Source: Paenisporosarcina antarctica
GTDB taxonomy: Bacteria; Bacillota; Bacilli; Bacillales_A; Planococcaceae
Reading direction: 5' to 3'
DNA length: 52,500 bases
Assembly (NCBI RefSeq): GCF_004367585.1
Contig: NZ_CP038015.1
Location: forward strand, 440,001 to 492,500
Position 1 is the stretch's first letter; each line of letters begins with the position of its first letter. The notes beneath the pieces were generated by a model. The model worked only from the letters and a program-made list of their open reading frames with translations. It was not told the DNA's origin and made no database searches. The translations under genes and the position numbers were made by a program. Positions 11,780-39,012 of this stretch are shown here, piece after piece.

Positions 11780-11850
11780 TATAGCAAGCAAGTGTTGTAA
11801 AAGGTTGAGGGAGGACATATTAATTGACTGACAATAAATTTATAAACAAT

Positions 11851-11886: not shown

Positions 11887-11927
11887 TTCTTATATTTTGA
11901 AACTGGTGTTCAATTTCGTCAAACATT

Positions 11928-12659: not shown

Positions 12660-12751
12660 AAATAAAGTCCTTTCATCAAAAGATGTTCTTTTCTTATTGT
12701 ATTGTTTTTTAATGCGGCTCGCAAAGAATACAGAAATTTCGATGTTCCTAC

Positions 12752-12780
12752 TTGCAAAAGTGGAGACGATTCATTAATAT
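12752..12780 (+). promoter_or_regulatory. Sigma-A promoter of groES-groEL
   Basis: TTGCAA (12752-12757), a 17-nt spacer, then TAATAT (12775-12780). Transcription would start close to the CIRCE element. Confidence 0.75.
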
Positions 12781-12790
12781 AAGAACTGTG

Positions 12791-12817
12791 TTAGCACTCA
12801 TAGACTGAGAGTGCTAA
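12791..12817 (+). promoter_or_regulatory. CIRCE operator (HrcA site)
   Basis: TTAGCACTC, nine bases, GAGTGCTAA: a perfect match to the CIRCE consensus. It lies just after the promoter and before groES, so HrcA repression and heat induction of groES-groEL are expected. Confidence 0.97.
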
Positions 12818-12856
12818 TAAATTAATTTACTACCATTTCAGGGAGGTTGTTTTCAC

Positions 12857-13141
12857 TTGTTAAAACCATTAGGCGATCGTATCGTAATTGAATTAGTCGA
12901 GTCTGAAGAAAAATCAGCATTCGGCATTGTCATTCCAGACTCTGCTAAAGAGAAGCCACAGGAAGGGAAAGTAATTGCTGTTGGGACTGGTCGTGTACTT
13001 GAAAACGGCGCGCGTGTAGAGCTAGATGTGAAAGCGGGAGACAAAATCATCTTCTCTAAATACTCAGGTACTGAAGTGAAATTTGAAGGTAACGAATTTT
13101 TAATTTTACGCGAAAGCGATATTTTAGCTATTATTGGCTAA
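12857..13141 (+). CDS. groES: Co-chaperonin GroES
   Basis: The 10-kDa lid of the GroEL folding chamber, 94 aa with the standard [11 protein letters not shown] beginning, a mobile loop around residues 17-30 and the conserved KYSGTEVK region. It starts with TTG at 12857, with GGAGG 10 nt upstream. groEL follows after 40 nt in the same CIRCE-controlled operon. Confidence 0.97.
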
Positions 13142-13160
13142 TATTAATAACTTCATTTAA

Positions 13161-14813
<1,653 letters not shown>

Positions 14814-19848: not shown

Positions 19849-21666
19849 ATGCAAATTTTTTACACAGTCCGTCCCGGGGATACGCTGTATCAAATAGCGA
19901 GGAGATGGGAGCTGCCGGTTGAGTCCCTTATTGCTGCGAATAATTTGGAAGCACCTTACACGATTTATGCAGGTCAGCAGCTTTCCGTTCCTCCCGGTGT
20001 TGATGTCATCCGTGTAAGGACAGGAGATACCGTTTATAAAATTGCTCAATTTTTCGGCGTTCCACAATCCGTTATTATCGAAGAAAACCAACTTCATCCT
20101 CCGTATATCATACAAGTGGGCCAACTGTTGAAAGTCCCTCCAGGTAGCCCATACTACGTTGTTCAACCCGGGGACACACTTTTTCAAATCGCTAAACGTT
20201 TTAATGTAATAACAAATGGACTAAGTTATCCTGATCTAATCAGGGAAGTGAACCTACTACCGTCGAATATCATTTTTCCAGGTATGAGTTTAATCATTCC
20301 ATATGCACCTCCCGGGGATCAAGGTTTAATTGCCTATACATCCAACGTAGGGGGAGACTATGAAATATGGCTGTATAACCCTAGTAATGGTGAGAATGTA
20401 CAATTCACAAACGGTTTAGGAGAATCCTTTTCAATTCCTTTTTGGTCTCCCGACAGCACAAGAATAGCTTTTGTAGGAAAAAATGAAATTCTGTATGTAC
20501 TCTATGTATCTGAAGGTGGAATTAGCAGTATTGATCAATTTAGTGAAGGCTTAGGTGTTTATTTAAGTTGGTCACCGGACAGTCAAATACTAACTTATAC
20601 GAAGCAGAATGATGTAATTTTGTACAATATTAATACACATCAATTTAAAAAAGTAAACCAACCTGGTGCCACTGATGTCCAGTGGTTTCCGAGCGGTACA
20701 GAATTGCTTTTCCAAGCGCCCGATGCATCAGGAATTAGTCAGCTTTACCGTATTGAAACCGATGGAGCAAATAAACGACAAATTACTCAAAACACTGGAA
20801 GTAGTTTTAATGATGTGCGTCTTTCCCCTGATGGATTGAATGTACTTTATACAACCCCTGGTGCTAGCATCTCCATTATTTACACTTTAGAAATTTCAAC
20901 GGGAAGCATATTTGAAGTAAGGGGCGGTCCCCTTGCTAAAAACTATTTTCCCGTATGGTCTCCTAATTCCTCGACTATTGCTTACAGTGCTACTGCTTTT
21001 GAAGACGTTGGATATTTCTCTCTAATCAGAACAAGTGGAAAAGAAGGGGAAAACGACTTGACGAGAGCCATATCAAATTGCTTTGCCACTCCTGTTACAT
21101 GGTCCCCAGATGGCAGGAAAATTGCCTATCTGTCGGACTGTAACAATGGAACGGCTAGTGAGATATGGATGATTGACATCTTGCATCCTGTACCGATTAG
21201 ATTAAGAGAAGTTGCATTCATTACGTCTTTGCAATGGTCCTCTCGTCCAATTGTTCCTATGAAGAAAACCTATACCAGTACTGTCTATAACGTTCAATTT
21301 CAATACCCTTCACATTGGGAAAGAATAAGAGAGGAAAGATATGAAGGTCTCGATGGCTTCTTTCAACTTTCAGCGATTTCTGCAGATGAAATGATTAACG
21401 AAGTTTGCCTCAATGAAGCGTACCATGGACTATATCCATATGGTTCCGCACCTCGCATCATTAAAGCACAAATCCAACAACAAGAAGCATGTTTTATTTT
21501 CCCGTCAATGGACCAACCACCAGAAATGGAAGGTCAAGCTGCTTTAATCGTCAGGTACCCAAAACCGATTCAAATTGAGGGCAGTACCTACAATTATTCT
21601 ATCTTGTGGGTATCCCAAAACCATCTGAATGAAATAAGTTCTACCTTTGTTTTCCGTAGTAGTTAA
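19849..21666 (+). CDS. Three-LysM protein with TolB-like beta-propeller
   Basis: A 605-aa protein. Three LysM peptidoglycan-binding modules occupy residues ~1-50, 51-99 and 100-155, each with a [TV]xxGDTxxxIA core and a closing P-rich segment. A WD40/TolB-like propeller follows (~160-470), recognisable by repeated WSPDSxxIAF/WSPDGxKIAY blades. The last ~130 residues are an unassigned domain. There is no signal peptide: the protein begins directly with the first LysM. In Bacillus, LysM proteins without a secretion signal are often spore coat or cortex proteins made in the mother cell, such as SafA and YaaH, so a spore location is plausible but inferred. The start is supported by a G-rich site and AAGG just upstream. 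Confidence 0.87.
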   Translation: MQIFYTVRPGDTLYQIARRWELPVESLIAANNLEAPYTIYAGQQLSVPPGVDVIRVRTGDTVYKIAQFFGVPQSVIIEENQLHPPYIIQVGQLLKVPPGSPYYVVQPGDTLFQIAKRFNVITNGLSYPDLIREVNLLPSNIIFPGMSLIIPYAPPGDQGLIAYTSNVGGDYEIWLYNPSNGENVQFTNGLGESFSIPFWSPDSTRIAFVGKNEILYVLYVSEGGISSIDQFSEGLGVYLSWSPDSQILTYTKQNDVILYNINTHQFKKVNQPGATDVQWFPSGTELLFQAPDASGISQLYRIETDGANKRQITQNTGSSFNDVRLSPDGLNVLYTTPGASISIIYTLEISTGSIFEVRGGPLAKNYFPVWSPNSSTIAYSATAFEDVGYFSLIRTSGKEGENDLTRAISNCFATPVTWSPDGRKIAYLSDCNNGTASEIWMIDILHPVPIRLREVAFITSLQWSSRPIVPMKKTYTSTVYNVQFQYPSHWERIREERYEGLDGFFQLSAISADEMINEVCLNEAYHGLYPYGSAPRIIKAQIQQQEACFIFPSMDQPPEMEGQAALIVRYPKPIQIEGSTYNYSILWVSQNHLNEISSTFVFRSS

Positions 21667-24188: not shown

Positions 24189-24332
24189 CTACCTTCCACA
24201 ACACCCTCCTCCTCTTCGTTTTTGAATTACTCTTTTCCCACTCGAAGTAGTGTTTATTATGATAGGTTCTTTAGAGCTATTATTACTATCAATCTTGGTA
24301 GATTTTAATATTACTTTTTGTTGTTTTTTCAC
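24189..24332 (-). CDS. Small basic protein with KRRGGGCCGR tail
   Basis: A 47-aa frame that I do not recognise. It starts at GTG (24332) with a strong GGGAGGTG site 8 nt upstream and ends at TAG (24189-24191). The product starts MKKQQKVILKSTK, has a Ser/Asn/Thr-rich centre, and ends KRVIQKRRGGGCCGR. It is strongly basic, soluble and has no membrane segment. It lies 55 nt after the JAMM peptidase gene on the same strand, so the two are probably co-transcribed behind the coiled-coil gene. Such short Gly-Cys-tailed basic proteins are common among spore-coat components. A di-glycine near the C-terminus beside a JAMM peptidase also recalls ubiquitin-like substrates, although 47 residues is too short for a beta-grasp fold. 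Both readings are inference. Confidence 0.65.
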   Translation of the reverse strand: MKKQQKVILKSTKIDSNNSSKEPIIINTTSSGKRVIQKRRGGGCCGR

Positions 24333-24387
24333 ATTAATCACCTCCCTTGCTGATTTAGTATATTCAATTAAAATTATAAAGTTAGGG

Positions 24388-24804
24388 CTAACTCAATGTT
24401 TCTATTACAATAGGACATTCAAAATAAGTTGATTTTAAAATGTTATAGCATTTTATTTTTGGGATTTCTAGTTTAAAAGAAACAATCACCATTTTTACTT
24501 CTTGATCAGGGTGACTAAAAATATCATAACTAGAAGGTATTGCTGATGTAGTTGGATGTGAGTGATAAATGGCGATAACACACTCGCTCCGTTCTTCAAT
24601 TTTATTAAGAGTTTTTTCTACTACCTTCTTTTGAACAAAAAAACGATTTTCAGATTTCACCTCGTTTTCCAACTTCCAAAATGAACATATTTTATTGTTA
24701 GTACCAGCTAACAGCCCACAAGATTCATATGGAAGGTGGATACGTGCGTGCTCGATTACTTCTTTTAATAGTAAATCTGAAATTATCACTTTGTTAGTTT
24801 CCAT
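24388..24804 (-). CDS. JAMM/MPN+ metallopeptidase (JAB domain)
   Basis: A 138-aa single-domain zinc peptidase of the JAB/M67 type. All JAMM residues are present: E27 in YESCGLLAG, and the block HSHPTTSAIPSSYD with H81, H83, S91 and D94 at the canonical spacing. No signal peptide or extra domain is seen. Known relatives cut isopeptide or peptide bonds next to ubiquitin-like tails, release cysteine from sulfur carriers, or have unknown targets. It overlaps the upstream coiled-coil gene by 11 nt, implying translational coupling, and precedes the small Gly-Cys-tailed protein. The target is unknown; the neighbours suggest processing of a spore or surface protein. Confidence 0.88.
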   Translation of the reverse strand: METNKVIISDLLLKEVIEHARIHLPYESCGLLAGTNNKICSFWKLENEVKSENRFFVQKKVVEKTLNKIEERSECVIAIYHSHPTTSAIPSSYDIFSHPDQEVKMVIVSFKLEIPKIKCYNILKSTYFECPIVIETLS

Positions 24805-26350
24805 AGTGCGGTTTCTTTTTGAAAAAATTTAAAAAATTAAAAATTCCAATTTTTTTATTTTCTTGTTGTTTCTTTTCAATAGAAACATTGTTTGTGTGTC
24901 CGTTAATCATTGACAAATCAACAGGAACGTCAATTGTCTGTTCGTTAATGATTGTAGTTTCAATAGGAACATAAAATGACTGCTCGTTAATTAATGTAGG
25001 TTCAACAGAAACATCAAATGTCTGTTCGATAATCTCTGCAGCATCAACAGGAACATCAAACTTTTGTTCGATAATCACTGCAGATTCAACAGGAGCAATT
25101 GTTTGTTCGATAATCACTGCAGATTCAACAGGAGCATCAATTGATTGTTCGGTAATTTCTGCAGCTTCAACAGGAGCATCAATTGTTAGTTCTATAATCT
25201 CTGTAGAATCAACAGGAGCATCAAATGTTAGTTCGATAATCTCTGTAGAATCAACAGGAGCATCAAATGTTAGTTCGGTAATTTCTGCAGCTTCAACAGG
25301 AGCATCAAATGTTTGTTCGATAATCTCTGTAGCATCAACAGGAGCATCAAATGTTAGTTCGGTAATTTCTGCAGCTTCAACAGGAACATCAAATGTTTGT
25401 TCGGTAATTTCTGCAGCTTCAACAGGAACATCAAATGTTTGTTCGATAATCTCTGCAGGCTTAGCAGGAACATCAATTGAATCTACTTTCTTCTCATCTA
25501 TAGGGGGCACTGAAATTGTGTTAGTGATGGTAGTATTTTCTTTAAATGGTTTATTGTTAGGGAAAATAATTTTAGTAGAATGTTTTCTGGCTTTTAATGG
25601 GAGAGTAGGTGTAATTAAATTCTTCTTGTCTTTTACTAAAGAATCCTCTTTTAAACGGATAGTATTAAATGTCTTTGAGTTTACCCCTTTGTTTAGTCCT
25701 TTAATAAATTGAGTAGGTGTATATCCATGAGATGGAAAACTGTTCTTATTATAGTGTGCCTGCTCTTCTTGATCTTTATTGCGTATATCTATAAGTTCTA
25801 TTGGAGTTAACGTATTTGGTTCTTGAATAACCTTTGCGTTATTTATAAATTTCTGTAGTTGTTTATAAGATAATGGGAGATTGTTTTTTTGAATAGGAGA
25901 AATTGATATATGTTCTATGGGGGGAGTAGTATCTTTTTTTCTTGTATGCATCTCACTGACTTCATTTTTTGTATCTGCTAGTAAGGAATCTTGTGAATTT
26001 ACTGTTTCTGTAATATTTTTAACTTCATTATTCGTTAATTTCTTCATGATTAATGAAATGTCTTGATTTAACTCACCGACAGTTTGGTTAAGGGAATCAA
26101 TCTGAACTGAAAATTTTTTTTCTTTTTGCTTATACTCCTCTATTTGTATACTTTGTTTTTCGTCTAGTAATTCCATTTCTCCTTTTAAATGTGTAACTTG
26201 ATTTTTATACCCATTAAATTCGGTTTTCATAAAGAGATAGTCATCAACTGTATTTCCTGTTTTCAATGTTTCTAAGGTGTCTTTATATGTTGCGATTTTC
26301 TGCTTCAGTATGTCAATGTCTTGAGTGGAATATATCTTAGATTTTCCCAA
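24794..26350 (-). CDS. Coiled-coil protein with 14-residue tandem repeats
   Basis: A 518-aa protein that I do not recognise. Residues ~5-115 are predicted coiled coil, rich in Lys/Glu/Gln. A low-complexity linker follows to about 285. About 14 tandem repeats of 14 residues then run to ~500, with consensus E-Q-T-F-D-V-P-V-E-A-A-E-I-I; one unit has lost a residue. The end is basic (FLNFFKKKPHYGN). There is no signal peptide or membrane helix. It starts at TTG (26350), with AAGGAGTG about 8 nt upstream. It is first in the operon with the JAMM peptidase and the small basic protein, and divergent from the paralogue array. The acidic repeats and coiled coil suggest a structural scaffold; a spore-surface role is inferred. 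Confidence 0.8.
   Translation of the reverse strand: MGKSKIYSTQDIDILKQKIATYKDTLETLKTGNTVDDYLFMKTEFNGYKNQVTHLKGEMELLDEKQSIQIEEYKQKEKKFSVQIDSLNQTVGELNQDISLIMKKLTNNEVKNITETVNSQDSLLADTKNEVSEMHTRKKDTTPPIEHISISPIQKNNLPLSYKQLQKFINNAKVIQEPNTLTPIELIDIRNKDQEEQAHYNKNSFPSHGYTPTQFIKGLNKGVNSKTFNTIRLKEDSLVKDKKNLITPTLPLKARKHSTKIIFPNNKPFKENTTITNTISVPPIDEKKVDSIDVPAKPAEIIEQTFDVPVEAAEITEQTFDVPVEAAEITELTFDAPVDATEIIEQTFDAPVEAAEITELTFDAPVDSTEIIELTFDAPVDSTEIIELTIDAPVEAAEITEQSIDAPVESAVIIEQTIAPVESAVIIEQKFDVPVDAAEIIEQTFDVSVEPTLINEQSFYVPIETTIINEQTIDVPVDLSMINGHTNNVSIEKKQQENKKIGIFNFLNFFKKKPHYGN
24880..25490 (-). repeat. 42-bp tandem repeat array inside the coiled-coil gene
   Basis: About 14 copies of a 42-nt unit that keep the reading frame, seen on the plus strand as repeated CAACAGGAGCATCAAATGTT and AATTTCTGCAGC / AATCTCTGTAGA blocks. 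Central copies are nearly identical and outer copies diverge. One copy near 25085 lacks a codon. Confidence 0.92.
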
Positions 26351-26583
26351 TAATTTTCACTCCTTCTTTGTACAGTATTATAATATTAATCATGTTATAA
26401 ATACGTGACAAGTTGAAATAGGCGTATTAGTGCTTTGTTTGAACATGAAAGAAGCTAGTGCCATTAGTGAGCGAAAGGAAGATATGGATTTATAGAAAAA
26501 TTCAATATGTAGACAGAGCTTGTTATTAATAGAGACAAGTTCTCCTTATTTGGTGAGCATAAACGTTTCCTTAAATAAGGTTT

Positions 26584-26618
26584 CTACCTAAACCTTTATT
26601 TTTTATCAACGTATAGTA
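26584..26618 (+). promoter_or_regulatory. Sporulation-type promoter module 1
   Basis: CTACCTAAAC at 26584 and CGTATAGTA at 26610, start-to-start distance 26 nt, then GAATGCAAG. The same module with the same spacing precedes the other two paralogues. CGTAnnnTA resembles the CATAnnnTA -10 box of the mother-cell factor sigma-K. Confidence 0.6.
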
Positions 26619-26651
26619 GAATGCAAGAAAAAATAAGGTGGTGTTTAAAGT

Positions 26652-27326
26652 ATGAAACATAAAAAACCGATTAATTGTCCAGAGTTAATTTGTATCAATG
26701 TTGATAAGGTGTACGACTGGATTGTTAAAGAAAAGTCGTTTGACGTTACTTCTTTAGCTGATGTTCCCATTACATTTACACCGGCTGATTCAGTACCTGA
26801 TGAAGATATTGTAGGTGCGACTGTAACATGTGAAGTGAACCCAGATCCAACAACTCCGATTGAAGTCCTAGCCCGTGACGATCGTCCATTTATCATTGAT
26901 GGGACTCAAGTTACCCTTCAGCAGCTGAATATTCGTAAGAATTTTATCATTACACTTATCGTGACTTTAGCAGATGGAACGGTGTTGACTAGTGCTCCAC
27001 CAGTTGAGGGTAATGAGCCAGTAAATGCAGAATTGTTGATTTCTCGTTGTGAGCAAGTTACATTGTGTGCCCCTGTAGGAACAGAAGTTGAAATTACGTA
27101 TACGGATCTAGATTGTTTCGTGTGTACGACAGGTGCACTCGAAGTAGCTGAGGATACAATCTCATTTACTGCTTTAACGATCTCGGTAATTACGTGTCAA
27201 AGCATTCAATCGATATACCCAGTAACAGTTGAATTCTTAGCTGAGTTCTGTGAGCCTAGAGATGATATTCAACCTGAATGTCCTGCCCCAATTCGCCCAC
27301 TACAATGCCCAGTTGTTTTCCCATAG
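26652..27326 (+). CDS. Cysteine-containing paralogue 1, spore-surface-like
   Basis: A 224-aa protein of unknown function, the first of three close paralogues (others at 27760 and 31438). Shared blocks in order are ELICINVDKVYDWIVKE, GATVTCEVNP, VTLQQLNIRKNFIITLI, ISRCEQVTLCAP, EITYTDLDCFVC, ISVxTCQSIQS and a nearly identical end EFLAEFCEPRDDIQPECP to PVVFP. It has about nine cysteines, a beta-rich pattern, no signal peptide and no membrane segment. The N-terminal dozen residues (MKHKKPINCP) differ from the other copies. A cysteine-rich protein without a secretion signal behind a sporulation-like promoter suggests a cross-linked spore coat or exosporium component; this is inference. AAGGTGG lies upstream of the ATG. 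Confidence 0.8.
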   Translation: MKHKKPINCPELICINVDKVYDWIVKEKSFDVTSLADVPITFTPADSVPDEDIVGATVTCEVNPDPTTPIEVLARDDRPFIIDGTQVTLQQLNIRKNFIITLIVTLADGTVLTSAPPVEGNEPVNAELLISRCEQVTLCAPVGTEVEITYTDLDCFVCTTGALEVAEDTISFTALTISVITCQSIQSIYPVTVEFLAEFCEPRDDIQPECPAPIRPLQCPVVFP

Positions 27327-27350
27327 TTATTGAATAAATTAATAATTTCA

Positions 27351-27390
27351 AACCGTGCCTACCTTAACTTGAGGAAGGCACGGTTTTTTA
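27351..27390 (+). terminator. Terminator of paralogue 1
   Basis: AACCGTGCCT pairs perfectly with AGGCACGGTT, followed by six T. An overlapping 79-codon frame runs through this hairpin and is not a gene. The ~300 nt up to the next promoter module are otherwise empty. Confidence 0.9.
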
Positions 27391-27689
27391 TCATACTAAA
27401 AATATTTGAAATTCTAAGAGTTTTTCACTTTCAATATAAAAATGTGAACTTCAAATTAATTTATTATCTTAGTAAAGCATTGTTAATCATGTTTTCAATA
27501 AGGGACAAATTGCTTACACAAGATTTATTATGGATCTCTCTATATGGAGGTATAATCCAAAGTTGCTAATAGTCATCATCTATAAAAGAAAAATTATTAT
27601 TTATAGAGATCCCCAATTCTTTAATCAGTTTAGATAGAAACGTGTGCTTTACACGTAAAAATTAATAAATATGGAGATAAGTAAGCTTA

Positions 27690-27724
27690 CTACCTAAACA
27701 CTTTTTTTTTTTCAACGTATGCTA
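27690..27724 (+). promoter_or_regulatory. Sporulation-type promoter module 2
   Basis: CTACCTAAAC at 27690 and CGTATGCTA at 27716, again 26 nt apart, followed by CGAATGTAAG. Confidence 0.6.
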
Positions 27725-27759
27725 CGAATGTAAGTTACTAATTTAAGGAGGTGAAAAAT

Positions 27760-28422
27760 ATGCAATTTAAAAATTTAAATGGTGGTCAAGAGTTAATTTG
27801 TATCAATGTTGATAAGGTGTACGACTGGATTGTTAAAGAAAAGTCGTTTGACGTTTCTCTACCTCCTGGTACTACAATTACATTTACACCTTCGATTACC
27901 CTTGATGACGCAACTCTTGCTGGTGCGACTGTAACATGTGAAGTGAACCCAGATCCAACAACTCCGATTGAAATCCTAGCTCGTGACGATCGTCAATTTA
28001 TCATTAATGGGACTCAAGTAACTCTTCAACAGTTAAATATTCGCAAGAATTTTATCATTACACTTATCCTGACTTTAGCAAATGGAACAGTGTTGACTAG
28101 TGTACCTTCTGCAGCATTGATGATTTCTCGCTGTGAACAAGTTACATTGTGTGCCCCAGTAGGAACAGACGTTGAAATTACGTATACGGATCTAGATTGT
28201 TTCGTGTGTACGTTTGGTACACTTTCGGGAGATCCTGAAAGTATGCTCACATTTGTTGATGGTCTAACGATCTCGGTAGTTACGTGCCAAAGCATTCAAT
28301 CGACATTCCCAGTAACAGTTGAATTCTTAGCTGAGTTCTGTGAGCCAAGAGATGATATTCAACCTGAATGTCCTGCCCCAATTCGCCCACTACAATGCCC
28401 AGTTGTTTTCCCAAGCGTATAA
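27760..28422 (+). CDS. Cysteine-containing paralogue 2, spore-surface-like
   Basis: A 220-aa second member of the family, starting at the ATG at 27760 (MQFKNLNGGQELICINVDK). AAGGAGG lies 7 nt upstream; an in-frame GTG at 27751 overlaps that site and is not used. It keeps all the blocks of paralogue 1 but has a different loop after KSFDV (LPPGTTITFTPS) and a shorter segment before ISRCEQ. The last ~45 codons are almost identical at DNA level to the other copies, which indicates recent duplication or gene conversion. Confidence 0.8.
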   Translation: MQFKNLNGGQELICINVDKVYDWIVKEKSFDVSLPPGTTITFTPSITLDDATLAGATVTCEVNPDPTTPIEILARDDRQFIINGTQVTLQQLNIRKNFIITLILTLANGTVLTSVPSAALMISRCEQVTLCAPVGTDVEITYTDLDCFVCTFGTLSGDPESMLTFVDGLTISVVTCQSIQSTFPVTVEFLAEFCEPRDDIQPECPAPIRPLQCPVVFPSV

Positions 28423-28439
28423 TGGGCACCAAACATATT

Positions 28440-28472
28440 ATGAAGAGAGTATATTCTCTCTTCATTTTTTAA
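28440..28472 (+). terminator. Terminator of paralogue 2
   Basis: ATGAAGAGAG pairs with CTCTCTTCAT, followed by T. It resembles the hairpin after paralogue 3, showing that the duplicated unit includes the terminator. Confidence 0.88.
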
Positions 28473-29008
28473 TATAGGGTGTAGAATGATCCATTATAAA
28501 TTCTAATACCACAAGAGTTGTAAGGAAAAGCAGAGTGTTAAAACTAATGATTTAAGAGTTCCAAAGAAAAGTCCTTTATAATAGAAAGCCAGGGTTTTTA
28601 CCCGTCCAACAAATGGACAAGAATAATACATAACTTATTCAACTTTATTTAGGGCTAAGATTCTGTAATCAACTAGAAATTTAGCTCTTGCTAAGGAATT
28701 GTCATAGTGGTTATCCTTTTGATTTAACGGTCTCTTAAACTTAGGGTAAGTAATAGCTCATCAGTTGCTACATTATTAAATTAAGGCCATCAGTAGGCTT
28801 GGAGTATTTTTGCAGTTACAAGGTCTCGTTTAACAGATGAGAATTCGCATTGAACTAAAACTACGTCTTTTCGTTCTCCTACGTTGCATACAACAATTTC
28901 ACGGGTGTATAAATCAAGTTATTACATCCCAGAGACTCTACTATTAATTTCATATATATAGTAAAAGGGAATTACTATAAGAGTTCCCAATATGAAAAGG
29001 GTGAGGTA
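28473..29008. other. Intergenic stretch without recognised genes
   Basis: About 535 nt. I find no reading frame with a ribosome binding site on either strand. CATATATATAGTA just over 50 nt before the next gene is a weak candidate for a sporulation-type -10 box. Confidence 0.5.
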
Positions 29009-30868
29009 ATGAAAAAAAAACAAGTGCGAATTAGGAGGGATTTTACGAATTCCAGTTCAAGTGTTTATGAGTGCTTTTTATCTGAAACATCGTGTGTAGA
29101 ACTACTTCAAGTAGGAGGCCGTGCAGAACAAACAATATTTCTACCTGACGGTACAAAAGTACTACTTCAAAGAGTGAAAATATTGACGACAGGACTTGTT
29201 ACAGTCAAGTTAATGGATGGGTCAAGTGTGATAGAGCCATTCTCATTAACGGAGGGATATTTCTTATGTGCACCACCAGGAACAACCGTTAATTGTGAAA
29301 TCACAAATGTAAGATGTTATGCTAACGTGGTTTGCGTAGACAATATGTGTAATCAATTAATAATTTCTATCAGCTTTTGTCAGGATGTAAAATCAGAAAC
29401 AAATGTAAACGTATTAATGAACGGGGAATTTTGTAAACCAAGATTACAGGATATATCTGGGCAGTGTCTTCCAATTGGTCAGTCAATTCAGGGGCAACTA
29501 AATTTTATCGAAGTAAAATCAACAGATGGTGAAGAAAAACAAACTTTAATAAGAAATGACATAATTATACCTTTTGAAGAAACTTATTGCGCTAAAGCTT
29601 CTAGAGTATATGACTGGATTCAACGACATATTGTTGTCCCTACTATTAGTAAAGAAAGGGCATGTATATATGAAGTTCTCTCGGCTGATGGGGATTGTGG
29701 TGACATTGCGGAGGGAGATCTTATTTGCCTACCGTGTGATGAAGCATGTGAAGAATTTCTCGTCTGTAATAATCAAAATTGTCTTTTAATATTGAGAAGT
29801 ATTTCTACTGAGTGCCAATTTTGTCCATCTGATGCTAAAATATTTCCGAATGGACTTGCATGTGAAGTTCAGGGACAGGGCGTTTTCAATGTTGAGAAGG
29901 TATTATTTTATCCGACAATCGAAGAAGCTGTTGCGGATGCAGAAGATAATAATACCTTAATCGTATTTCCAGGGGAGTATAATCCTCCTTCATTCCTTTC
30001 AATTGATAAGCCGTTGACGTTGCGAGGATTAATAGTAGATCAAACAACAGTCACTTTTCCAGATAGCCTTATTAATACGACAAGTCTTAGGATTGAAGCA
30101 GACAATGTTACAATTGAAAATCTTCATTTTATAGGTCCTACTTCTACGACTTCAGGGGATAACGCATTATTAGGAATTCCATTTAAATCGTTTGGTGTAC
30201 TTTATGAAAACATTACCATCAGGGTTTCTATTATTGAAGGAGGACGTCGAAATGCATTTATTCGGGCGAAAAATTTAACCATTTCCGAAACAATGTTTAT
30301 TCATACAGGAAACCGGAATTCTTTGCACATCTTTAACGCACAAGGTACAACCAATATTAGTGAAAACACATTTCAAGGTGGACCAGAAAGTCGGGCAGCT
30401 ATGACTTTTGAAGATGGTGAAAGTGGATTTACAGGGACCATTACTATACAAGATAATACATCCATAAGGCATTCGCAATTTGTGTTGTTTAATTTATTTC
30501 GTTTTGATGATGTGTCTTTATTTGTGTTACGAAATATAATTGACCACCAAGATAGATCTGGCAGCTCAATCATTTTTATTCCTATCGATTTTACTGAAGC
30601 TTTACCTATTATTATTGAAGAAAATGAAATTATTAACCCAAACCCAGGTAGACTTGCAGTTTATGTTGATTTCAGAGATGCTGGTGCATCTGTTCCTTCA
30701 AACGGCCAAATACAGGTAATTAGAAATATTTTTGATATAGCTTTACCTTGGGGCTCAGTTACAGATACTGTAGATCCCAATTACCCTGTAGGTTTTAGTA
30801 CAAATGCTCCAATGTCCATGTCATTAAATGCTTTTCAGTTAGTTGGAAATATAGTCATAAATCTTTAA
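29009..30868 (+). CDS. Composite surface protein: paralogue-type modules plus beta-helix
   Basis: A 619-aa protein that I do not recognise as a named family. Residues ~25-150 resemble the second half of the ~220-aa paralogues, with ISFCQDVKSETNVNVLMNGEFCKPR matching their TCQSIQS...EFLAEFCEPR ending. Residues ~190-290 begin CAKASRVYDWIQRHI, matching their INVDKVYDWIVKE beginning, and continue cysteine-rich. Residues ~300-615 form a right-handed parallel beta-helix of the NosD/pectate-lyase kind, with repeated ITI.NT / IENLHFIG turns and IVFPGEY. There is no signal peptide. It starts at ATG 29009 with AAGG about 8 nt upstream. Shared modules and position point to the same structure as its neighbours. 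Confidence 0.8.
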   Translation: MKKKQVRIRRDFTNSSSSVYECFLSETSCVELLQVGGRAEQTIFLPDGTKVLLQRVKILTTGLVTVKLMDGSSVIEPFSLTEGYFLCAPPGTTVNCEITNVRCYANVVCVDNMCNQLIISISFCQDVKSETNVNVLMNGEFCKPRLQDISGQCLPIGQSIQGQLNFIEVKSTDGEEKQTLIRNDIIIPFEETYCAKASRVYDWIQRHIVVPTISKERACIYEVLSADGDCGDIAEGDLICLPCDEACEEFLVCNNQNCLLILRSISTECQFCPSDAKIFPNGLACEVQGQGVFNVEKVLFYPTIEEAVADAEDNNTLIVFPGEYNPPSFLSIDKPLTLRGLIVDQTTVTFPDSLINTTSLRIEADNVTIENLHFIGPTSTTSGDNALLGIPFKSFGVLYENITIRVSIIEGGRRNAFIRAKNLTISETMFIHTGNRNSLHIFNAQGTTNISENTFQGGPESRAAMTFEDGESGFTGTITIQDNTSIRHSQFVLFNLFRFDDVSLFVLRNIIDHQDRSGSSIIFIPIDFTEALPIIIEENEIINPNPGRLAVYVDFRDAGASVPSNGQIQVIRNIFDIALPWGSVTDTVDPNYPVGFSTNAPMSMSLNAFQLVGNIVINL

Positions 30869-31368
30869 TTAGTTTAATGTACTCTATTAGTACCTCGTTC
30901 AATGCCTCAATTTGAAGTTAACAATGGGAAACAAAAGGGCAATATTAATGTGCAAATAGTCTAGATGACGGGATAAGATTATTAATATTTAATCGCTATA
31001 GTTGCACATTTTGCTCAGGTTGTTATTATGTCCTCGTTTCCTCAAAAAGATCCGATTTAGCTACATGTACCCTCTCTTAAAAATGTGAATAACCCCTTTC
31101 TATTTAGCACGTCCTAAAAGGCCGTTTTAAATTATTCTAGTTTCTACGTTTTACTAGTTGCTTCATGTCCAAGGATGTAAACATTTGAATTGCAGGCACT
31201 TATCATTCGCAGGTACCGTTTAGTATAGGATTATTTTTTTCTGCGTAAAATAGTCAGATTTACAAGTGGTTTAACAACCGGCAAAGTGTAAAATGATTTT
31301 TAATCGCTCATTATTATTCACCTCTTTCCCACTACAATAAAATTTAAATATCTAGAAAAGCAAGTTTT
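30869..31368. other. Intergenic stretch without recognised genes
   Basis: About 500 nt, AT-rich, with no supported reading frame. A minus-strand GAGGTG near 31316-31321 leads only to a three-codon frame. Confidence 0.5.
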
Positions 31369-31403
31369 CTACCTAACTCCTTGATTTTTTTCTTCGTATT
31401 CTA
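31369..31403 (+). promoter_or_regulatory. Sporulation-type promoter module 3
   Basis: CTACCTAACT at 31369 and CGTATTCTA at 31395, again exactly 26 nt apart, followed by GAATGTAAG. Confidence 0.6.
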
Positions 31404-31437
31404 GAATGTAAGCAAAAAAATTTTGGAGGTGAAAAAT

Positions 31438-32094
31438 ATGCAATATAAAAATTTAAATGGTGGTCAAGAGTTAATTTGTATCAATGTGGATAAGGTGTAC
31501 GACTGGATTGTTAAAGAAAGGTCATTCGACGTTTCTTTAGCAGGTGCTGTCATTACATTTACACCTGCTGGTTCAGTACCTGCTGGACCTATTTTAGGTG
31601 CGACTGTTACATGTGAAGTGAACCCTAATCCGGCACTTCCGATTGAAATCCTAGCCCGTGACGATCGTCCATTTATCATTGATGGGACTCAAGTTACTCT
31701 CCAGCAGTTAAATATTCGTAAGAATTTCATTATTACACTTATCGTGACTTTAGCAGATGGAACTGTGTTGACTAGTGTACCTTCTGCAGCATTGATGATT
31801 TCCCGTTGTGAGCAAGTTACATTATGTGCGCCTGAAGGAACAGATGTTGAAATTACGTATACGGATCTAGATTGTTTCGTGTGTACGACTGGTACACTCA
31901 TGGGAGGTGAGGGAGGTATAATCACATTTAGTGCTCTAACGATTTCCGTAGTTACTTGCCAGAGCATTCAATCGATATTTCCAGTAACTGTTGAATTCTT
32001 AGCTGAGTTCTGTGAGCCTAGAGATGATATTCAACCTGAATGCCCTGCCCCAATTCGCCCACTACAATGCCCAGTTGTTTTCCCACGCGTATAA
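31438..32094 (+). CDS. Cysteine-containing paralogue 3, spore-surface-like
   Basis: A 218-aa third family member, beginning MQYKNLNGGQELICINVDK like paralogue 2. GGAGGTG lies upstream of the ATG at 31438; a longer frame from 31423 includes the binding site and is rejected. It keeps the conserved cysteine blocks, with its own loop after RSFDV (SLAGAVITFTPAG) and a glycine-rich MGGEGG loop before the last CQSIQS segment. Its separation from copies 1 and 2 by the 619-aa composite gene suggests the composite was inserted into, or evolved within, a tandem array. Confidence 0.8.
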   Translation: MQYKNLNGGQELICINVDKVYDWIVKERSFDVSLAGAVITFTPAGSVPAGPILGATVTCEVNPNPALPIEILARDDRPFIIDGTQVTLQQLNIRKNFIITLIVTLADGTVLTSVPSAALMISRCEQVTLCAPEGTDVEITYTDLDCFVCTTGTLMGGEGGIITFSALTISVVTCQSIQSIFPVTVEFLAEFCEPRDDIQPECPAPIRPLQCPVVFPRV

Positions 32095-32115
32095 AGCGTC
32101 AGTACAAACCATATT

Positions 32116-32147
32116 ATGAAGGGAGAATATTTCTCTCTTCATTTTTT
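32116..32147 (+). terminator. Terminator of paralogue 3
   Basis: ATGAAGGGAGA pairs with TCTCTCTTCAT, followed by six T; close copy of the hairpin at 28440. It lies only 20 nt before the next gene, which may rely on read-through. Confidence 0.88.
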
Positions 32148-32166
32148 GTAAAAGGGGTGCTAATTG

Positions 32167-32742
32167 ATGAAAAAGGATAAGAATGATATAGAAGAGAAAA
32201 TCAAAAAGCTTCATCATCAAACGAATACATACTTGACTGAAATAAAAAGGATAATAGCTGAACGTGAGGTGCCCGTCAAAAATAGTTTAATATGCTATTT
32301 TACTTATTCAATGAACATTTCCCACGATCCTGAGCAGGAGAGCTTATGTCTAGGATCTTTCCATATACTTAATACGGGAAATCAGTCTATTACAAATCCT
32401 TATATATACTTAAAAATTCCAATAGAATCATTTTTTTCTTTTTCAGGAAAGTACGTATATGAAAATGCTAAAAAGTCATCGAAAGTTACAGATGGATGGG
32501 AACGAATAAATGAAAAAAAGAATAGGGAAGAATATTGGCTTAAGCCTTTGGGTAATAAAACTATTGAACCTAATGAGAAAATTTCATTTTCAAATTTCCA
32601 GATCAATTGGTCACCTAAAGAATCTTATTCAGGCAGTATCATTGGGTTTACTTACAGTGATCAAATGAAAGATGGGGTAGCTGTGATTAATCCGATTAAT
32701 ATAAATGGGACTATACGTAAGAAGGGGGATGAAGGTGAGTAA
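32167..32742 (+). CDS. Unknown protein in the surface-protein locus
   Basis: A 191-aa soluble protein that I do not recognise. The first ~40 residues form a charged helix (KKDKNDIEEKIKKLHHQ), followed by a mainly beta region with NSLICYFTYSMNISHDPE, LGSFHILNTGNQSITNPYIYLKI and a WSPKESYSGSIIGFTYSD segment, compatible with an immunoglobulin-like beta-sandwich. There is no signal peptide or membrane segment. The ATG at 32167 is preceded by AAGGGGTG. It overlaps the next gene by a few bases, so the two form a coupled pair. Confidence 0.7.
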   Translation: MKKDKNDIEEKIKKLHHQTNTYLTEIKRIIAEREVPVKNSLICYFTYSMNISHDPEQESLCLGSFHILNTGNQSITNPYIYLKIPIESFFSFSGKYVYENAKKSSKVTDGWERINEKKNREEYWLKPLGNKTIEPNEKISFSNFQINWSPKESYSGSIIGFTYSDQMKDGVAVINPININGTIRKKGDEGE

Positions 32743-33037
32743 TTTAGAAGGAAAAGAGCAAGAATTATTAATAAAGCAAGGAATTCGCCAATTTATGAAA
32801 GATCAGATTAACGAACCAAAAGAGGGTAACAACAGTTTCGTCTATTTGGAGAATAGTACATTAAATATGTTGATTACTTATTTGTTGATGAATGGAAATA
32901 GTCGAACTTATGGAGAAATGGATAGAGAAGATGATGGGTTTTCTAATAATAAAATTTTGGAGGATCTTGACCATATCATTGAGGGTAGCAAACAGGAATT
33001 TGAGGAGATCATCACACTACTAAAAGGTAAAGTTTAA
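32735..33037 (+). CDS. Small unknown protein coupled to the preceding gene
   Basis: A 100-aa helical, acidic protein of unknown function (from GTG 32735, beginning VSNLEGKEQELLIKQGIRQFMKD). I prefer this GTG because AGGGGG ends 6 nt before it; an in-frame ATG at 32729 directly touches the binding site. The start lies inside the end of the preceding gene, whose TAA is at 32740-32742. The C-terminal half is an amphipathic helix (LEDLDHIIEGSKQEFEEIITLL). Its neighbours suggest a role in the same structure. Confidence 0.65.
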   Translation: MSNLEGKEQELLIKQGIRQFMKDQINEPKEGNNSFVYLENSTLNMLITYLLMNGNSRTYGEMDREDDGFSNNKILEDLDHIIEGSKQEFEEIITLLKGKV

Positions 33038-33240
33038 ATCATCATCCTTTAATTATGTATTCCCTCTTACGCAAATGAAATGATTAAATTGATACATAAA
33101 TTGAATTATTAACAGCTTTGACCTTAACCCACAAATATATCGTTGCCAAATGAATCAATAGTATTGTCAACATACTTGATTTCACGAATGAAGATACCAG
33201 CAGCCTTTGTTTTGGGATATCTGTGATGGGGGGTAATAAC

Positions 33241-34170
33241 TTGAATACTGGAAATATTAAAAATAACGATCCTATACAACTTCAACAAACGATTATTTAT
33301 TTTAAGGCAGAACTAGCTAAATATAAAGGTAAAGTTGAAAAATACAAAAATAACTTTGACCATTCGTTAATAGAAAAACTTGAACAAGAAAATGTTCATT
33401 TAACGAACGATAAAGCCGAACTATCTCTAGAGGTGTATAAGTTAAATAAAGAACTTGAAAGGCAGACTAGCGATTTTAAAGAACGTATTCATTTACAGGA
33501 AGTTCAGATAAAAACGTCAATGAATTCTATTAATAACTTGCAGAAAACTAAAACTGATTTAAGACAGATGAACAAGCAGTTGACTGAAGTAATAAAAACA
33601 TTAAAAGACGGGCTCAATTCTGATAAATATAGAAACAAAAAACAGGATAGACAAGTTCTTTCACTTAATCAAAAGCTTGCAGAATATAAAACTACTATAG
33701 AACAGCACGACAGCAAACTTGTTGAACTCTTTCAAGAAGCAAATAAAAAAGTGTATTTAAAGATTGAAAAATTGGATATAAGTATCAATGACCGTATCCA
33801 GTCTGAAGAAGATAGACAGTATATGATAAAAGAAATGGAAGAAAAAGAAAAAGCTTTAGAAAAGCTCCAACATGAAATAATGAATTTAACAGAACAAAAT
33901 GAAAAGTACAAAGATGCCATTACACGATTAGAAAAAAGTTTGAGCGAGAAGAATGATGGTATAGGTTTATTCTCTTCATCTAGTACACCTACTATTGATT
34001 CTGACATGCTTTTGCAATTAGAAAATCAAATAAAAGATGTTTTAGGACAATCGTTGGATTTCGAAGAAAAATTGGCTGCGAAGTTAATTGTTATTAATTC
34101 TTTGGAACATAAATTAGATCAGCTTACTATAGAAATTGATGACATAAAAGAAGTCCGACCAATCGATTGA
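33241..34170 (+). CDS. Long coiled-coil protein, unknown
   Basis: A 309-aa protein, almost wholly coiled coil from residue ~10 to 230 (Lys/Glu/Gln/Leu heptads). A short Ser-rich break around 240 (GLFSSSSTPTIDSD) is followed by a second helical pair to the C-terminus. There is no signal peptide or membrane helix. The TTG at 33241 has GGGGGG 7 nt upstream; GTG 33223 and ATG 33226 overlap or precede that G-rich site. It recalls the coiled-coil part of the protein at 24794-26350, so the locus is framed by two coiled-coil proteins, but I see no direct sequence similarity. A scaffold role is inferred. Confidence 0.7.
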   Translation: MNTGNIKNNDPIQLQQTIIYFKAELAKYKGKVEKYKNNFDHSLIEKLEQENVHLTNDKAELSLEVYKLNKELERQTSDFKERIHLQEVQIKTSMNSINNLQKTKTDLRQMNKQLTEVIKTLKDGLNSDKYRNKKQDRQVLSLNQKLAEYKTTIEQHDSKLVELFQEANKKVYLKIEKLDISINDRIQSEEDRQYMIKEMEEKEKALEKLQHEIMNLTEQNEKYKDAITRLEKSLSEKNDGIGLFSSSSTPTIDSDMLLQLENQIKDVLGQSLDFEEKLAAKLIVINSLEHKLDQLTIEIDDIKEVRPID

Positions 34171-35364: not shown

Positions 35365-36090
35365 ATGATGAGTGAATCAATGGAATATCTCTATCCTTCA
35401 AAATGGATTGCGAGCGCTTCTACAGGTGTTCGTTTAGCATGCGAGCTTAGAATTCGAATTATTTCAGGCACGATAAAAAAAGGTACCGTTTTATCAGAAA
35501 ATAAATTAGCAGCAGAATTTGAAGTAAGTCGATCCCCTATTCGTGAAGCATTAAAAATATTGGCAACTGAAAACATTATTCGATTAGAAAGAATGGGTGC
35601 GGTTGTTGTTGGTTTATCGGAACAGGATATAAAGGAAATTTATGATGTGCGCTTAGTCATCGAAACGTTTGTTTATGAACGTATTGTGAAAATGGATACC
35701 ACTGAATTAGTAAAAGAGCTAAGTAAAATACGCGAAATGATGGAAGTTGCCATTAAATATAATGATGCTGATGAATTCTCTTATCAGGATGTATTGTTTC
35801 ATGAAACGATAATTCGTTCGATTGATCATTCCTATATCCTATTGATATGGAATAATGCAAAACCTGTTATGGAAAGTTTAATCCTTCTTTCTATGCGCAT
35901 GCGTTTAGAAGAAAAGTCCGATGATTTTGCACGAGTTTTGAAAAATCACGATCTTTATATCGAAGCGATCAATTCAAAAAATCGAGATATCATGATCCAG
36001 GCGTTACATCAAAACTTTCAAGATGTTCAAGGAAAAGTAGATGATCTTTGGATGTCGCAACAAATGCTCACGAAAGAAAGGGAGCAATAG
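35365..36090 (+). CDS. gntR: Gluconate operon repressor GntR
   Basis: FadR-subfamily GntR regulator. The winged helix (about residues 20-85) has LACELRIRIISGTIKKGTVLSENKLAAEFEVSRSPIREALKIL, and an all-helical FCD effector domain follows. The 241-aa length is normal. It is first in gntR-gntK-gntP-gntZ, the same order as in B. subtilis, and lies 25 nt after its own operator, so it is autoregulated and responds to gluconate. AGGAAG precedes the start; ATG 35365 or 35368 are both possible. Confidence 0.94.
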   Translation: MMSESMEYLYPSKWIASASTGVRLACELRIRIISGTIKKGTVLSENKLAAEFEVSRSPIREALKILATENIIRLERMGAVVVGLSEQDIKEIYDVRLVIETFVYERIVKMDTTELVKELSKIREMMEVAIKYNDADEFSYQDVLFHETIIRSIDHSYILLIWNNAKPVMESLILLSMRMRLEEKSDDFARVLKNHDLYIEAINSKNRDIMIQALHQNFQDVQGKVDDLWMSQQMLTKEREQ

Positions 36091-36093
36091 GCT

Positions 36094-37641
36094 ATGACGA
36101 ATTATATGTTAGGTGTCGATATCGGTACGACTAGTACGAAAGCTGTGTTATTTACTGAAAAAGGCGAAATAATTCAACAAGAGAATATTGGATACCCCCT
36201 GTACACACCAGATATTTCAACAGCAGAACAGAACCCAGAAGAGATATTTCAGGCTGTAGTGCAAGCTATATCAAATATAATGGCGAATTCCCAAATTAAC
36301 CCAGAAAAATTGTTATTCATTTCATTTAGTAGTGCCATGCATAGTGTAATTGCGATGGATGAAAATGATCAACCACTGACGCAATGTATTACTTGGGCGG
36401 ATAATCGAAGTGAAGGTTGGACTCGTAAAATAAAAGAAGAGTTAAACGGTCATGAAGTGTACAAACGGACTGGGACACCTATTCATCCCATGGCCCCATT
36501 AAGCAAGATTGCTTGGATTGTAAATGATCGACCTGAAATAGCAGCCAAAGCCAAGAAATATATAGGAATTAAAGAATTCATTTTCAAAAAGTTCTTTGAT
36601 CGATATGTAGTGGACCATTCACTAGCTTCAGCAATGGGTATGATGAATCTCAAAAAACTAGATTGGGATGAAGAAGCACTGCAAATAGCGGGAGTTACAC
36701 CGGATCAGTTATCCGAGCTTGTGCCGACAACTAAGATTTTCACAAATTGTAGCCCAGAAATTGCACAAAAGATGGGCATTGCTCCACAAACGTCATTTGT
36801 CATTGGGGCAAGTGATGGTGTGCTTTCTAATATAGGCGTGGATGCCATTGGTAAAGGTGAAGTAGCTGTAACAATTGGGACTAGCGGCGCTATACGAACA
36901 ATCATTGACCATCCTCATACTGATGACAAGGGTCGAATATTTTGCTACGCATTAACAGAAAAACATTGGGTCATTGGTGGCCCAGTCAACAACGGTGGAA
37001 TGGTACTGCGATGGATTAGAGATGAATTTGCATCGTCAGAAGTAGAAACGGCAAAAAGGCTGGGCATTGATCCGTATGAAGTGTTAACAAGAATTGCTGA
37101 ACGGGTAAGGCCTGGCGCTGATGGATTATTGTTCCATCCATACCTAGCTGGTGAACGTGCTCCATTGTGGAATCCTGATGTGAGAGGCTCATTTTTTGGT
37201 TTAACGATGACCCACAAGAAGGAACATATGATTCGGGCAGCACTTGAAGGTGTCATTTACAATCTTTACACCGTATTTTTAGCCTTACTCGAAGTGATGG
37301 ATGAACCGGTTACCCGAATAAAAGCAACTGGCGGATTCGCAAGATCAGATGTTTGGCGACAAATGATGGCTGATATATTTGATGTGGAAGTGATTGTTCC
37401 GGAAAGCTATGAAAGCTCCTGTCTTGGGGCTTGTATTTTAGGGCTATATGCTACCGGAAAAGTTGATTCGTTTGATGTGGTTTCTGACATGATTGGTACT
37501 ACATTTAAGCACACGCCTATTGAATCCGATGTGCAAGAATACAGAGAGCTTCTACCAATATTTATTAATATATCGAGAGTATTGGAAAAAGAATATACAA
37601 GCATTGCAAAGTATCAACGAAATTTAATTAAAAAAGAATAA
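36094..37641 (+). CDS. gntK: Gluconate kinase (FGGY family)
   Basis: Phosphorylates gluconate to 6-phosphogluconate with ATP. The 515-aa protein has the FGGY carbohydrate kinase fold: N-terminal DIGTTSTKAVLF phosphate-binding loop, then WADNR around the sugar site, and the C-terminal TGGFARSDVWRQMMADIF signature. It begins 3 nt after gntR. The neighbouring gluconate permease, 6-phosphogluconate dehydrogenase and GntR settle the substrate as gluconate rather than another polyol. Confidence 0.95.
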   Translation: MTNYMLGVDIGTTSTKAVLFTEKGEIIQQENIGYPLYTPDISTAEQNPEEIFQAVVQAISNIMANSQINPEKLLFISFSSAMHSVIAMDENDQPLTQCITWADNRSEGWTRKIKEELNGHEVYKRTGTPIHPMAPLSKIAWIVNDRPEIAAKAKKYIGIKEFIFKKFFDRYVVDHSLASAMGMMNLKKLDWDEEALQIAGVTPDQLSELVPTTKIFTNCSPEIAQKMGIAPQTSFVIGASDGVLSNIGVDAIGKGEVAVTIGTSGAIRTIIDHPHTDDKGRIFCYALTEKHWVIGGPVNNGGMVLRWIRDEFASSEVETAKRLGIDPYEVLTRIAERVRPGADGLLFHPYLAGERAPLWNPDVRGSFFGLTMTHKKEHMIRAALEGVIYNLYTVFLALLEVMDEPVTRIKATGGFARSDVWRQMMADIFDVEVIVPESYESSCLGACILGLYATGKVDSFDVVSDMIGTTFKHTPIESDVQEYRELLPIFINISRVLEKEYTSIAKYQRNLIKKE

Positions 37642-37665
37642 ACATTCAATATTGGAGGAATTGTC

Positions 37666-39012
37666 ATGCCGTTAGTTATTGTCGCGATAGGTATTGTTTC
37701 GTTACTAGTTTTAATTATGGGGTTCAAATTAAACACCTTTGTGTCATTAATCATTGTATCTTTTGGAGTTGCTTTAGCTTTAGGTATGCCACTAGATAGC
37801 GTTGTTGGTTCAATTGAGTCTGGACTTGGCGGAACACTTGGACATTTAGCTTTAATATTTGGTCTAGGTGCGATGTTAGGTAGTTTAATTGCAGATTCTG
37901 GAGGCGCGCAACGTATTGCGATGACCTTAATCGATAAATTCGGAGAAAAAAATATTCAATGGGCTGTTGTAGTTGCTTCATTCATTATCGGAGTTGCCTT
38001 ATTCTTTGAAGTAGGATTAGTACTATTAATTCCGATTGTATTTTCGATTTCAAAACAATTACGAGTGTCTATTCTATACTTAGGAATTCCGATGGCAGCT
38101 GCTTTATCGGTGACTCACGGATTTTTACCACCTCACCCTGGACCGACAGTAATTGCCGGAGAGTATGGTGCAAATATTGGTGAAGTATTACTTTACGGTT
38201 TTATTATTGCCATTCCAACTGTCATTTTAGCAGGGCCATTATTTACAAAGCTTGCTAAAAAACTTGTCCCTGATTCATTTAATAAAACAGGTGATATTGC
38301 TTCTTTAGGTGAACAAAAAACATTTAAAATAGAAGATACACCTAGTTTTGGTATCAGTGTATTTACAGCAATGTTTCCTGTTATCTTAATGGCTATCGGA
38401 ACAATTATTACCATGATTCAACAAACAAATGATATTGCAGATAATATGTTATTTGAAGTCGTGCGTTTTGTAAGTAATGCTTCTACTGCAATGTTATTAT
38501 CTTTATTGCTTGCCGTTTATACCATGGGATTGGCAAGAAAAATACCGATGAAAACCGTGATGAATACTTGTTCGAGAGCAATAGCAAGTATTGGGATGAT
38601 GCTATTAATTATTGGTGGTGGTGGGGCTTTTAAACAAGTACTCATTGATGGTGGTGTTGGTGACTACGTGGCTGAATTATTTAGTGACACGACATTATCA
38701 CCTATCTTACTGGCGTGGATGATCGCTGCTATTTTACGAATCGCTTTAGGATCTGCAACGGTTGCGGCTTTAACAACGGCCGGTTTAGTTATTCCTCTGT
38801 TAGGTACAACTGACGTTAACTTAGCTTTGGTCGTACTTGCAACTGGAGCAGGTAGTTTAATCGCTTCACATGTTAATGATGCTGGTTTCTGGATGTTTAA
38901 AGAGTTTTTTGGTTTGACGATGAAAGAAACATTTGCAACATGGACATTACTTGAAACGATTATTTCTGTTGCTGGATTAGGGTTTATTCTATTATTAAGT
39001 CTAATTGTTTAA
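37666..39012 (+). CDS. gntP: Gluconate permease GntP
   Basis: Proton-coupled gluconate importer of the GntP family, 448 aa with about 12-14 membrane helices. Family features include the HGFLPPHPGP motif near residue 145, and the SATVAALTTAGL and ASHVNDAGFWMFKEF segments near the C-terminus. TTGGAGG stands before the ATG. It lies between the kinase and dehydrogenase genes of the operon. Confidence 0.94.
   Translation: MPLVIVAIGIVSLLVLIMGFKLNTFVSLIIVSFGVALALGMPLDSVVGSIESGLGGTLGHLALIFGLGAMLGSLIADSGGAQRIAMTLIDKFGEKNIQWAVVVASFIIGVALFFEVGLVLLIPIVFSISKQLRVSILYLGIPMAAALSVTHGFLPPHPGPTVIAGEYGANIGEVLLYGFIIAIPTVILAGPLFTKLAKKLVPDSFNKTGDIASLGEQKTFKIEDTPSFGISVFTAMFPVILMAIGTIITMIQQTNDIADNMLFEVVRFVSNASTAMLLSLLLAVYTMGLARKIPMKTVMNTCSRAIASIGMMLLIIGGGGAFKQVLIDGGVGDYVAELFSDTTLSPILLAWMIAAILRIALGSATVAALTTAGLVIPLLGTTDVNLALVVLATGAGSLIASHVNDAGFWMFKEFFGLTMKETFATWTLLETIISVAGLGFILLLSLIV

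Follow-up and report, generated by a model that had tools for sequence, protein, structure and literature searches.

Ten genes at positions 24189-34170 of the window (the whole 52,500-nucleotide stretch of Paenisporosarcina antarctica DNA that was analysed) form a locus of a spore-coat type, an assignment that is well supported. BMQ_0737 genes at such loci keep a near-constant Ig-like partner that is unnamed in Pfam and NCBIfam, and the JAMM metalloprotease encoded here falls in a group of JAMM proteins that is linked to BMQ_0737 across many Bacilli. We consider it fairly probable that the genes constitute a mother-cell locus that builds an outer layer of the spore, with the JAMM enzyme and an adjacent cysteine-tailed miniprotein acting as proposed below. 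The mechanism suggested for this pair is an inference.

Three of the genes lie on the minus strand and seven on the plus strand, each where the initial annotation had put it. The minus-strand genes encode a tail miniprotein (24189-24332), the JAMM (Prok-JAB) metalloprotease (24388-24804; 138 aa; PF14464, E = 4.1e-16) and a 518-aa coiled-coil protein (24794-26350) with 14-residue acidic repeats and a C-terminus of the FLNFFKKK type. The JAMM gene and the end of the 518-aa gene overlap by 11 bases. The miniprotein, when read from a GTG at 24332 that was chosen by the upstream GGGAGGTG, is 47 aa long, carries 12 Lys/Arg residues and ends in RRGGGCCGR; the start given in the initial annotation, 24341, yields 50 aa. 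All components of the original inventory are present, although they amount to ten genes and not eleven, because the repeat scaffold counted separately is the C-terminal part of the 518-aa protein (42-bp unit, 13.4 copies, 24918-25476).

The plus strand carries BMQ_0737-family paralogues A (26652-27326; NF052457 E = 6.6e-50) and B (27760-28422; E = 4.3e-52), a 619-aa composite protein (29009-30868; E = 2.6e-33) in which one or more BMQ_0737-type domains precede a parallel beta-helix, and paralogue C (31438-32094; E = 2.7e-53), so that the composite gene sits between paralogues B and C. Further along are a 191-aa partner protein (32167-32742), modelled as an N-terminal helix plus an Ig-like beta-sandwich, a small conserved protein of up to 110 aa (32705-33037) and a 315-aa coiled-coil protein (33223-34170), the last two of which are kept at the same place in relatives. 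As had been claimed, signal peptides are not apparent: a strongly hydrophobic N-terminal stretch is found in none of the ten proteins by hydropathy, a cruder measure than a signal-peptide program.

Four of the ten proteins pass the NCBIfam model NF052457, 'BMQ_0737 family morphogenetic spore coat protein', which has a curated cut-off of 71 bits: the paralogues score 170, 177 and 181 bits, and the front part of the composite scores 116. The paralogues are 80-84% identical pairwise and contain 10-11 cysteines each, in keeping with the initial description of three cysteine-containing paralogues. That description also held that the genes were almost all unrecognised, which is true of Pfam, where the JAMM alone of the ten proteins passes a cut-off (PF14464, PF01398), but not of NCBIfam. 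A probable spore-surface locus with its own enzyme was recognised correctly, and the error lay in taking the core proteins for unrecognised ones. The term 'undescribed' likewise fails for the core, a named family with a studied founder, and stands, within the literature searched, for the partner and the JAMM/tail module.

The founder, BMQ_0737, was located in the outermost protein set of Bacillus (Priestia) megaterium spores according to the accessible portion of PMC4656864, which treats it as a single protein and makes no mention of a partner, a JAMM or a tail. The accessible portion of PMC4674009 names BMQ_0737 once, in its reference list, and is likewise silent on partner, JAMM and tail. 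The likeness of the present locus to the B. megaterium system consists of three full-length paralogues and one partial domain over the family cut-off. Across the literature searched, which took in few subscription papers, neither the constant partner nor the JAMM/tail pair is described as a module, and the pairing of JAMM or Mov34 with spore coat, sporulation or exosporium is absent from the accessible text of the matches listed.

The distribution of the family is also consistent with a role in the spore. In a sample of 200 genomes of the host family, SpoIVA was matched in 56 of the 56 genomes that bear NF052457 and in 154 overall (150 of these matches being over its cut-off), a co-occurrence with a hypergeometric P of 2e-8 when the kinship of the genomes is ignored. 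The host genome has SpoIVA, and all four NF052457 copies found in it fall within the locus; NF052457 is absent from the eight same-genus genomes listed, though SpoIVA is present in all eight. The spore-surface reading of the initial annotation is supported by NF052457, by promoters resembling those of sigma-K and GerE, and by the SpoIVA match in every sampled family genome with the coat protein. An AlphaFold2 model of paralogue C gives a beta fold with disordered ends (mean pLDDT 73). A Foldseek search of the BMQ_0737 model against known structures gave a best E of 0.023 and none at 0.001 or better, and the BMQ_0737 profile reached a best E of 0.64 against PDB sequences. Among 209 genomes taken phylum-wide, only the centre genome passed the BMQ_0737 cut-off and 36 others matched weakly; eight of these 36 have a JAMM match, none of them closer than 290 kb on one contig (a figure obtained by eye from the coordinates).

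The sporulation-type promoter modules reported at the paralogues are real. Promoter-like elements on the plus strand precede paralogue A (26586-26618; GerE-like ACCTAAAC, 16 nt, CGTATAGTA), paralogue B (27692-27724; ACCTAAAC, 16 nt, CGTATGCTA) and paralogue C (31371-31403; ACCTAACT, 16 nt, CGTATTCTA). They share the arrangement RCCYAWNY-16 nt-CGTAnnnTA. Of the six upstream regions in the locus, three contain it, compared with a mean of 0.005 in shuffles; the pattern was picked after the sequences had been seen. At the named loci described below, CATAnnnTA is present in 42 of 42 BMQ_0737 upstream regions (shuffle mean 3.3), and RCCYAWNY stands exactly 16 nt ahead of it in 37 (shuffle mean below 0.1). 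We take CATAnnnTA to be a sigma-K-like -10 element and RCCYAWNY a GerE-like box, the two being set at constant spacing in the relatives. The three -10 boxes in the window have CGTA and not CATA, in an identical layout, a difference that counts against the reading favoured below.

The same pattern is missing within 150 bases upstream of the composite, 191-aa and 518-aa genes. Terminator-like hairpins that resemble each other follow paralogues B (28440-28465) and C (32116-32142), so transcription of the 191-aa gene may require either read-through or a different promoter. A scan for sigma-70 promoters performed at chance, with 54 found and 51.6 expected.

The initial annotation proposed co-occurrence of the genes as a check, and gene order proves to be conserved both across the host family and at named loci. 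At 30 family loci, taken from 56 genomes matched, relatives of the 191-aa and 315-aa proteins are each present beside BMQ_0737 in all 30, the 110-aa relative in 29 and the 518-aa coiled-coil protein in 28. A second set of 44 named loci (Lysinibacillus, Sporosarcina, Psychrobacillus, Viridibacillus, Metasolibacillus, Halobacillus and others) has the 191-aa relative in all 44, the 110-aa and 315-aa relatives in 40 each and the 518-aa protein in 31. Beyond the host family, where 47 of the 55 genomes with BMQ_0737 were examined, a profile of the 191-aa family finds a relative no more than 4 kb from BMQ_0737 in 42. Two of the five misses (G512 and G615) come from stretches that stop about 3 kb past BMQ_0737, where a 191-aa relative would be cut off, judging by kin; for another (G378) the stretch is 6 kb of an 8.5-kb contig. 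A match is absent from all 24 control JAMM loci.

Neither the 191-aa protein nor any of four relatives tried has a Pfam or NCBIfam family over cut-off. Its AlphaFold2 model (pLDDT 85) consists of an N-terminal helix and a beta-sandwich, for which Foldseek returns generic Ig-like sandwiches (best E 6.4e-6; TM about 0.45 by query length). Four Sporosarcina records (L043, L045, L060 and L074) show the 315-aa coiled-coil match several times in series around 11650-14400, reflecting repeats or extra copies. One record named Arthrobacter (L046) bears a locus of the Bacilli type, and its label is probably a wrong name or a sign of contamination.

The JAMM protein of the window has the motif E...HSHx10D, and its catalytic residues are invariant in an alignment with four relatives. 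It resembles the JAMM1/desampylase enzymes in its Prok-JAB match, in a match to JAMM1 in the PDB and in these catalytic residues, with the desampylase model itself scoring below cut-off (43.5 against 130 bits). In contrast to those enzymes, it is accompanied in genomes by a spore-coat protein and by a miniprotein with a cysteine tail, and not by a ubiquitin-like modifier. In the host family, a JAMM relative occurs in 5 of 261 genomes at E 0.001 (the host and four others). All five lie in the same locus and adjoin a tail gene, and one is interrupted; this is the JAMM of Psychrobacillus sp. OK032 (L048, 8170-8560), beside which the tail gene is open. Two Halobacillus records carry a JAMM at the same place.

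A profile built from five JAMM sequences gives some match in 142 of 398 genomes of the class Bacilli. When the best 66 matches are ranked, a BMQ_0737 gene stands no more than 10.5 kb away on the same contig for 37 of the first 42 and for none of the next 24. The boundary at rank 42 was set post hoc, scores run continuously across it, and the profile was built from linked genes. Four of the remaining five strong matches have BMQ_0737 on another contig and one genome (G598) lacks it. On a tree of 69 JAMM sequences the strong-group label needs 3 changes, compared with 20.1 when labels are shuffled, and the group forms a single clade (one change) in only 3% of bootstrap trees. The motif H[ST]Hx10D is retained in 44 of 45 strong-group proteins. 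The exception (L173, 6782-7168) is the JAMM of G598, in which Asp is replaced by Asn and next to which a tail gene still lies; this is the sole strong-group genome with no BMQ_0737 detected, and the Asn is what one would expect if the enzyme had lost its role.

JAMM is present in 41 of the 62 class genomes with BMQ_0737 and absent in 21. Among the 56 family genomes that have BMQ_0737 it occurs in only 5, and among the 44 named loci in 6; the JAMM/tail pair is accordingly dispensable. In the family of G503 (23 genomes, four of them new), one genome has BMQ_0737 without a JAMM and one has a weak JAMM without BMQ_0737, which leaves the JAMM linkage without independent replication.

JAMM is linked to the tail gene as well. 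In Psychrobacillus and Halobacillus, the JAMM-adjacent gene encodes a small basic protein of 46-50 aligned residues with an invariant GGCCG near its end. Using a pattern fixed only after such examples were known (an ORF of 25-130 aa at most 1.6 kb from JAMM, whose final 22 residues contain C-x(0-2)-C-G-[KRGP]), we find a same-strand tail ORF at 39 of the 42 strong matches and at none of the 24 controls. A stricter GC.?CG pattern, fixed in the same way, gives 34 of 42 against 0 of 24, and all 34 lie 8-143 bp from JAMM. The background of the tail pattern is visible as a matching small ORF on either strand in 4 of 44 further loci and as an opposite-strand ORF in 5 of the 42 strong-group loci (0 of 24 controls). 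One genome among the three strong loci without a tail has a relative ending in GGCCLK about 4 kb away. The claim of a dedicated processing enzyme consequently stands as a genomic linkage, on these counts and on those for BMQ_0737, but not as a reaction.

At the 44 named loci, JAMM and an adjacent tail co-occur in the same six, while tail-pattern matches at three JAMM-less loci lie away from that place and look like chance. The tails themselves vary among GGCCG, GGCACG, GCGCG and SCCG types, and several lack GG before the cysteines, having one or no Gly there (KGCCGR, SRSCCGR, RRRCCGR and RRCCGK). Nine BMQ_0737 loci in the range L135-L147 have no JAMM at that place, and seven of them still have a tail protein, so that this protein would not be a JAMM substrate only. 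In these seven (L135-L140 and L144) the tail gene stands beside BMQ_0737, and six of the seven proteins end in GCxCG plus a basic stretch; the genome of L139 does have a JAMM, beside its other BMQ copy.

The composite was initially described as paralogue modules joined to a beta-helix, and this architecture is borne out by an NF052457 match at residues 13-154 and by beta-helix matches from residue 304 (TIGR04247 and TIGR03805), both of the latter below their cut-offs. The composite probably represents an exposed variant. Three other genomes encode proteins of 631-632 aa whose front part matches BMQ_0737 (L089, 7404-9299; L090, 8719-10617; L091, 8875-10773), and there they stand away from the main locus. 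In two genomes of the host family, proteins of 314-320 aa combine an Enas N-terminal half with an NF052457-matching C-terminal half (L092, 7595-8557; L093, 8105-9049), each adjoining an Enas gene, and L093 additionally has collagen-like genes. These fusions may connect ENA fibres with BMQ_0737, and together with the composite-like proteins they suggest that parts of BMQ_0737 are used as docking modules by a variety of surface structures.

ENA proteins (PF13157) resemble the paralogues in being cysteine-bearing proteins of the spore surface, where they appear late according to the accessible part of PMC12921279. Membership of the window proteins in this group was rejected, as none has an Enas match at E up to 1. 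A profile comparison with ENA aligned only a short motif like CINVDKVYDW, with a probability of 47.

On the interpretation that we favour, cysteine-rich BMQ_0737 proteins would assemble late in sporulation, under sigma-K with GerE, into a disulfide-linked layer on the spore, to which the Ig-like partner and the coiled-coil proteins may provide anchorage. The beta-helix protein would dock through its BMQ_0737 part, as a variant exposed on the surface. The JAMM would be a zinc protease with the tail protein as its dedicated partner, most likely cutting beside the cysteine tail. Such a cut would ensure timely release or maturation of the tail protein, whose cysteines would cross-link or cap the layer. 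A cut near the tail ranks as the most likely action of the enzyme, followed by action on coat proteins and then by a cysteine switch; Gly-Gly maturation is unlikely.

Action on the coat is the most serious competitor, although we give it distinctly the smaller chance. The JAMM would then cut BMQ_0737 or the coiled-coil scaffold, and the tail protein would be an independent, merely co-transcribed component that cross-links or neutralises charge. This would fit both the seven loci where a tail protein lies beside BMQ_0737 in the absence of JAMM and the variation in tail type. However, the spacing of tail and JAMM in all 34 strict cases is tighter than that of JAMM and BMQ_0737, whose starts are 1.5-10.5 kb apart. 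The occurrence of tail proteins without JAMM also weighs against a switch, in which the tail's cysteine pair would sit on the JAMM zinc and keep the enzyme inactive under the reducing conditions of the mother cell until oxidation at the spore surface freed it. The dedicated neighbouring gene and the conserved C-terminal cysteine pair would suit such a device, which we nevertheless regard as doubtful.

Maturation of a ubiquitin-like kind, in which a cut after Gly-Gly exposes a conjugatable terminus, has a parallel in the JAMM Mec+, which acts this way on CysO-Cys. The window tail reads GGG-CC and many others GG-C, but the tails with one or no Gly ahead of the cysteines, and the lack of any E1 or ubiquitin-like match among the ten locus proteins in Pfam and NCBIfam, make this reading improbable. 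As a general mechanism it was rejected, GG not being universal across tails. Least credible of all, to the point that we attach hardly any weight to it, is that the locus is a mobile or phage-derived remnant and not a spore system. Prophage hallmarks, which the initial annotation had named as grounds for refutation, were looked for: the JAMM matches three PHROGs tail families, but the other nine proteins have no PHROGs match at E 0.001, no phage gene was found among ten neighbouring genes checked, and the arrangement is conserved in many families. What the JAMM shares with phage tail Prok-JAB proteins is a widespread domain, through which alone these matches arise, and a prophage origin was rejected.

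The outer layers of a spore influence its adhesion, resistance and germination, and little is known of how they are assembled beyond the best studied species. The comparison extends BMQ_0737 from one studied protein to a module that includes an almost invariable partner and, across many families, a protease with its dedicated miniprotein. Specific, testable genes are thereby supplied for the construction and timing of such a layer. The JAMM enzyme apparently operates without a ubiquitin-like system. We suggest, tentatively and with less confidence than for the locus itself, that spore-forming Bacilli share a dedicated coat-maturation module in which a JAMM specialised for the outer spore layer and a basic miniprotein, with its C-terminal cysteine pair as substrate or switch, act on a layer of BMQ_0737 and its Ig-like partner. 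If this is true, the JAMM pathway would not depend on any ubiquitin-like protein, and assembly of the spore coat would include a proteolytic timing step of a new kind.

Elsewhere in the window, a 605-aa protein with LysM and WD40-like propeller matches is encoded at 19849-21666. Genes for a GntR regulator, an FGGY sugar kinase and a GntP permease stand in series at 35365-39012 and probably make up an ordinary operon for gluconate at the border of the locus.
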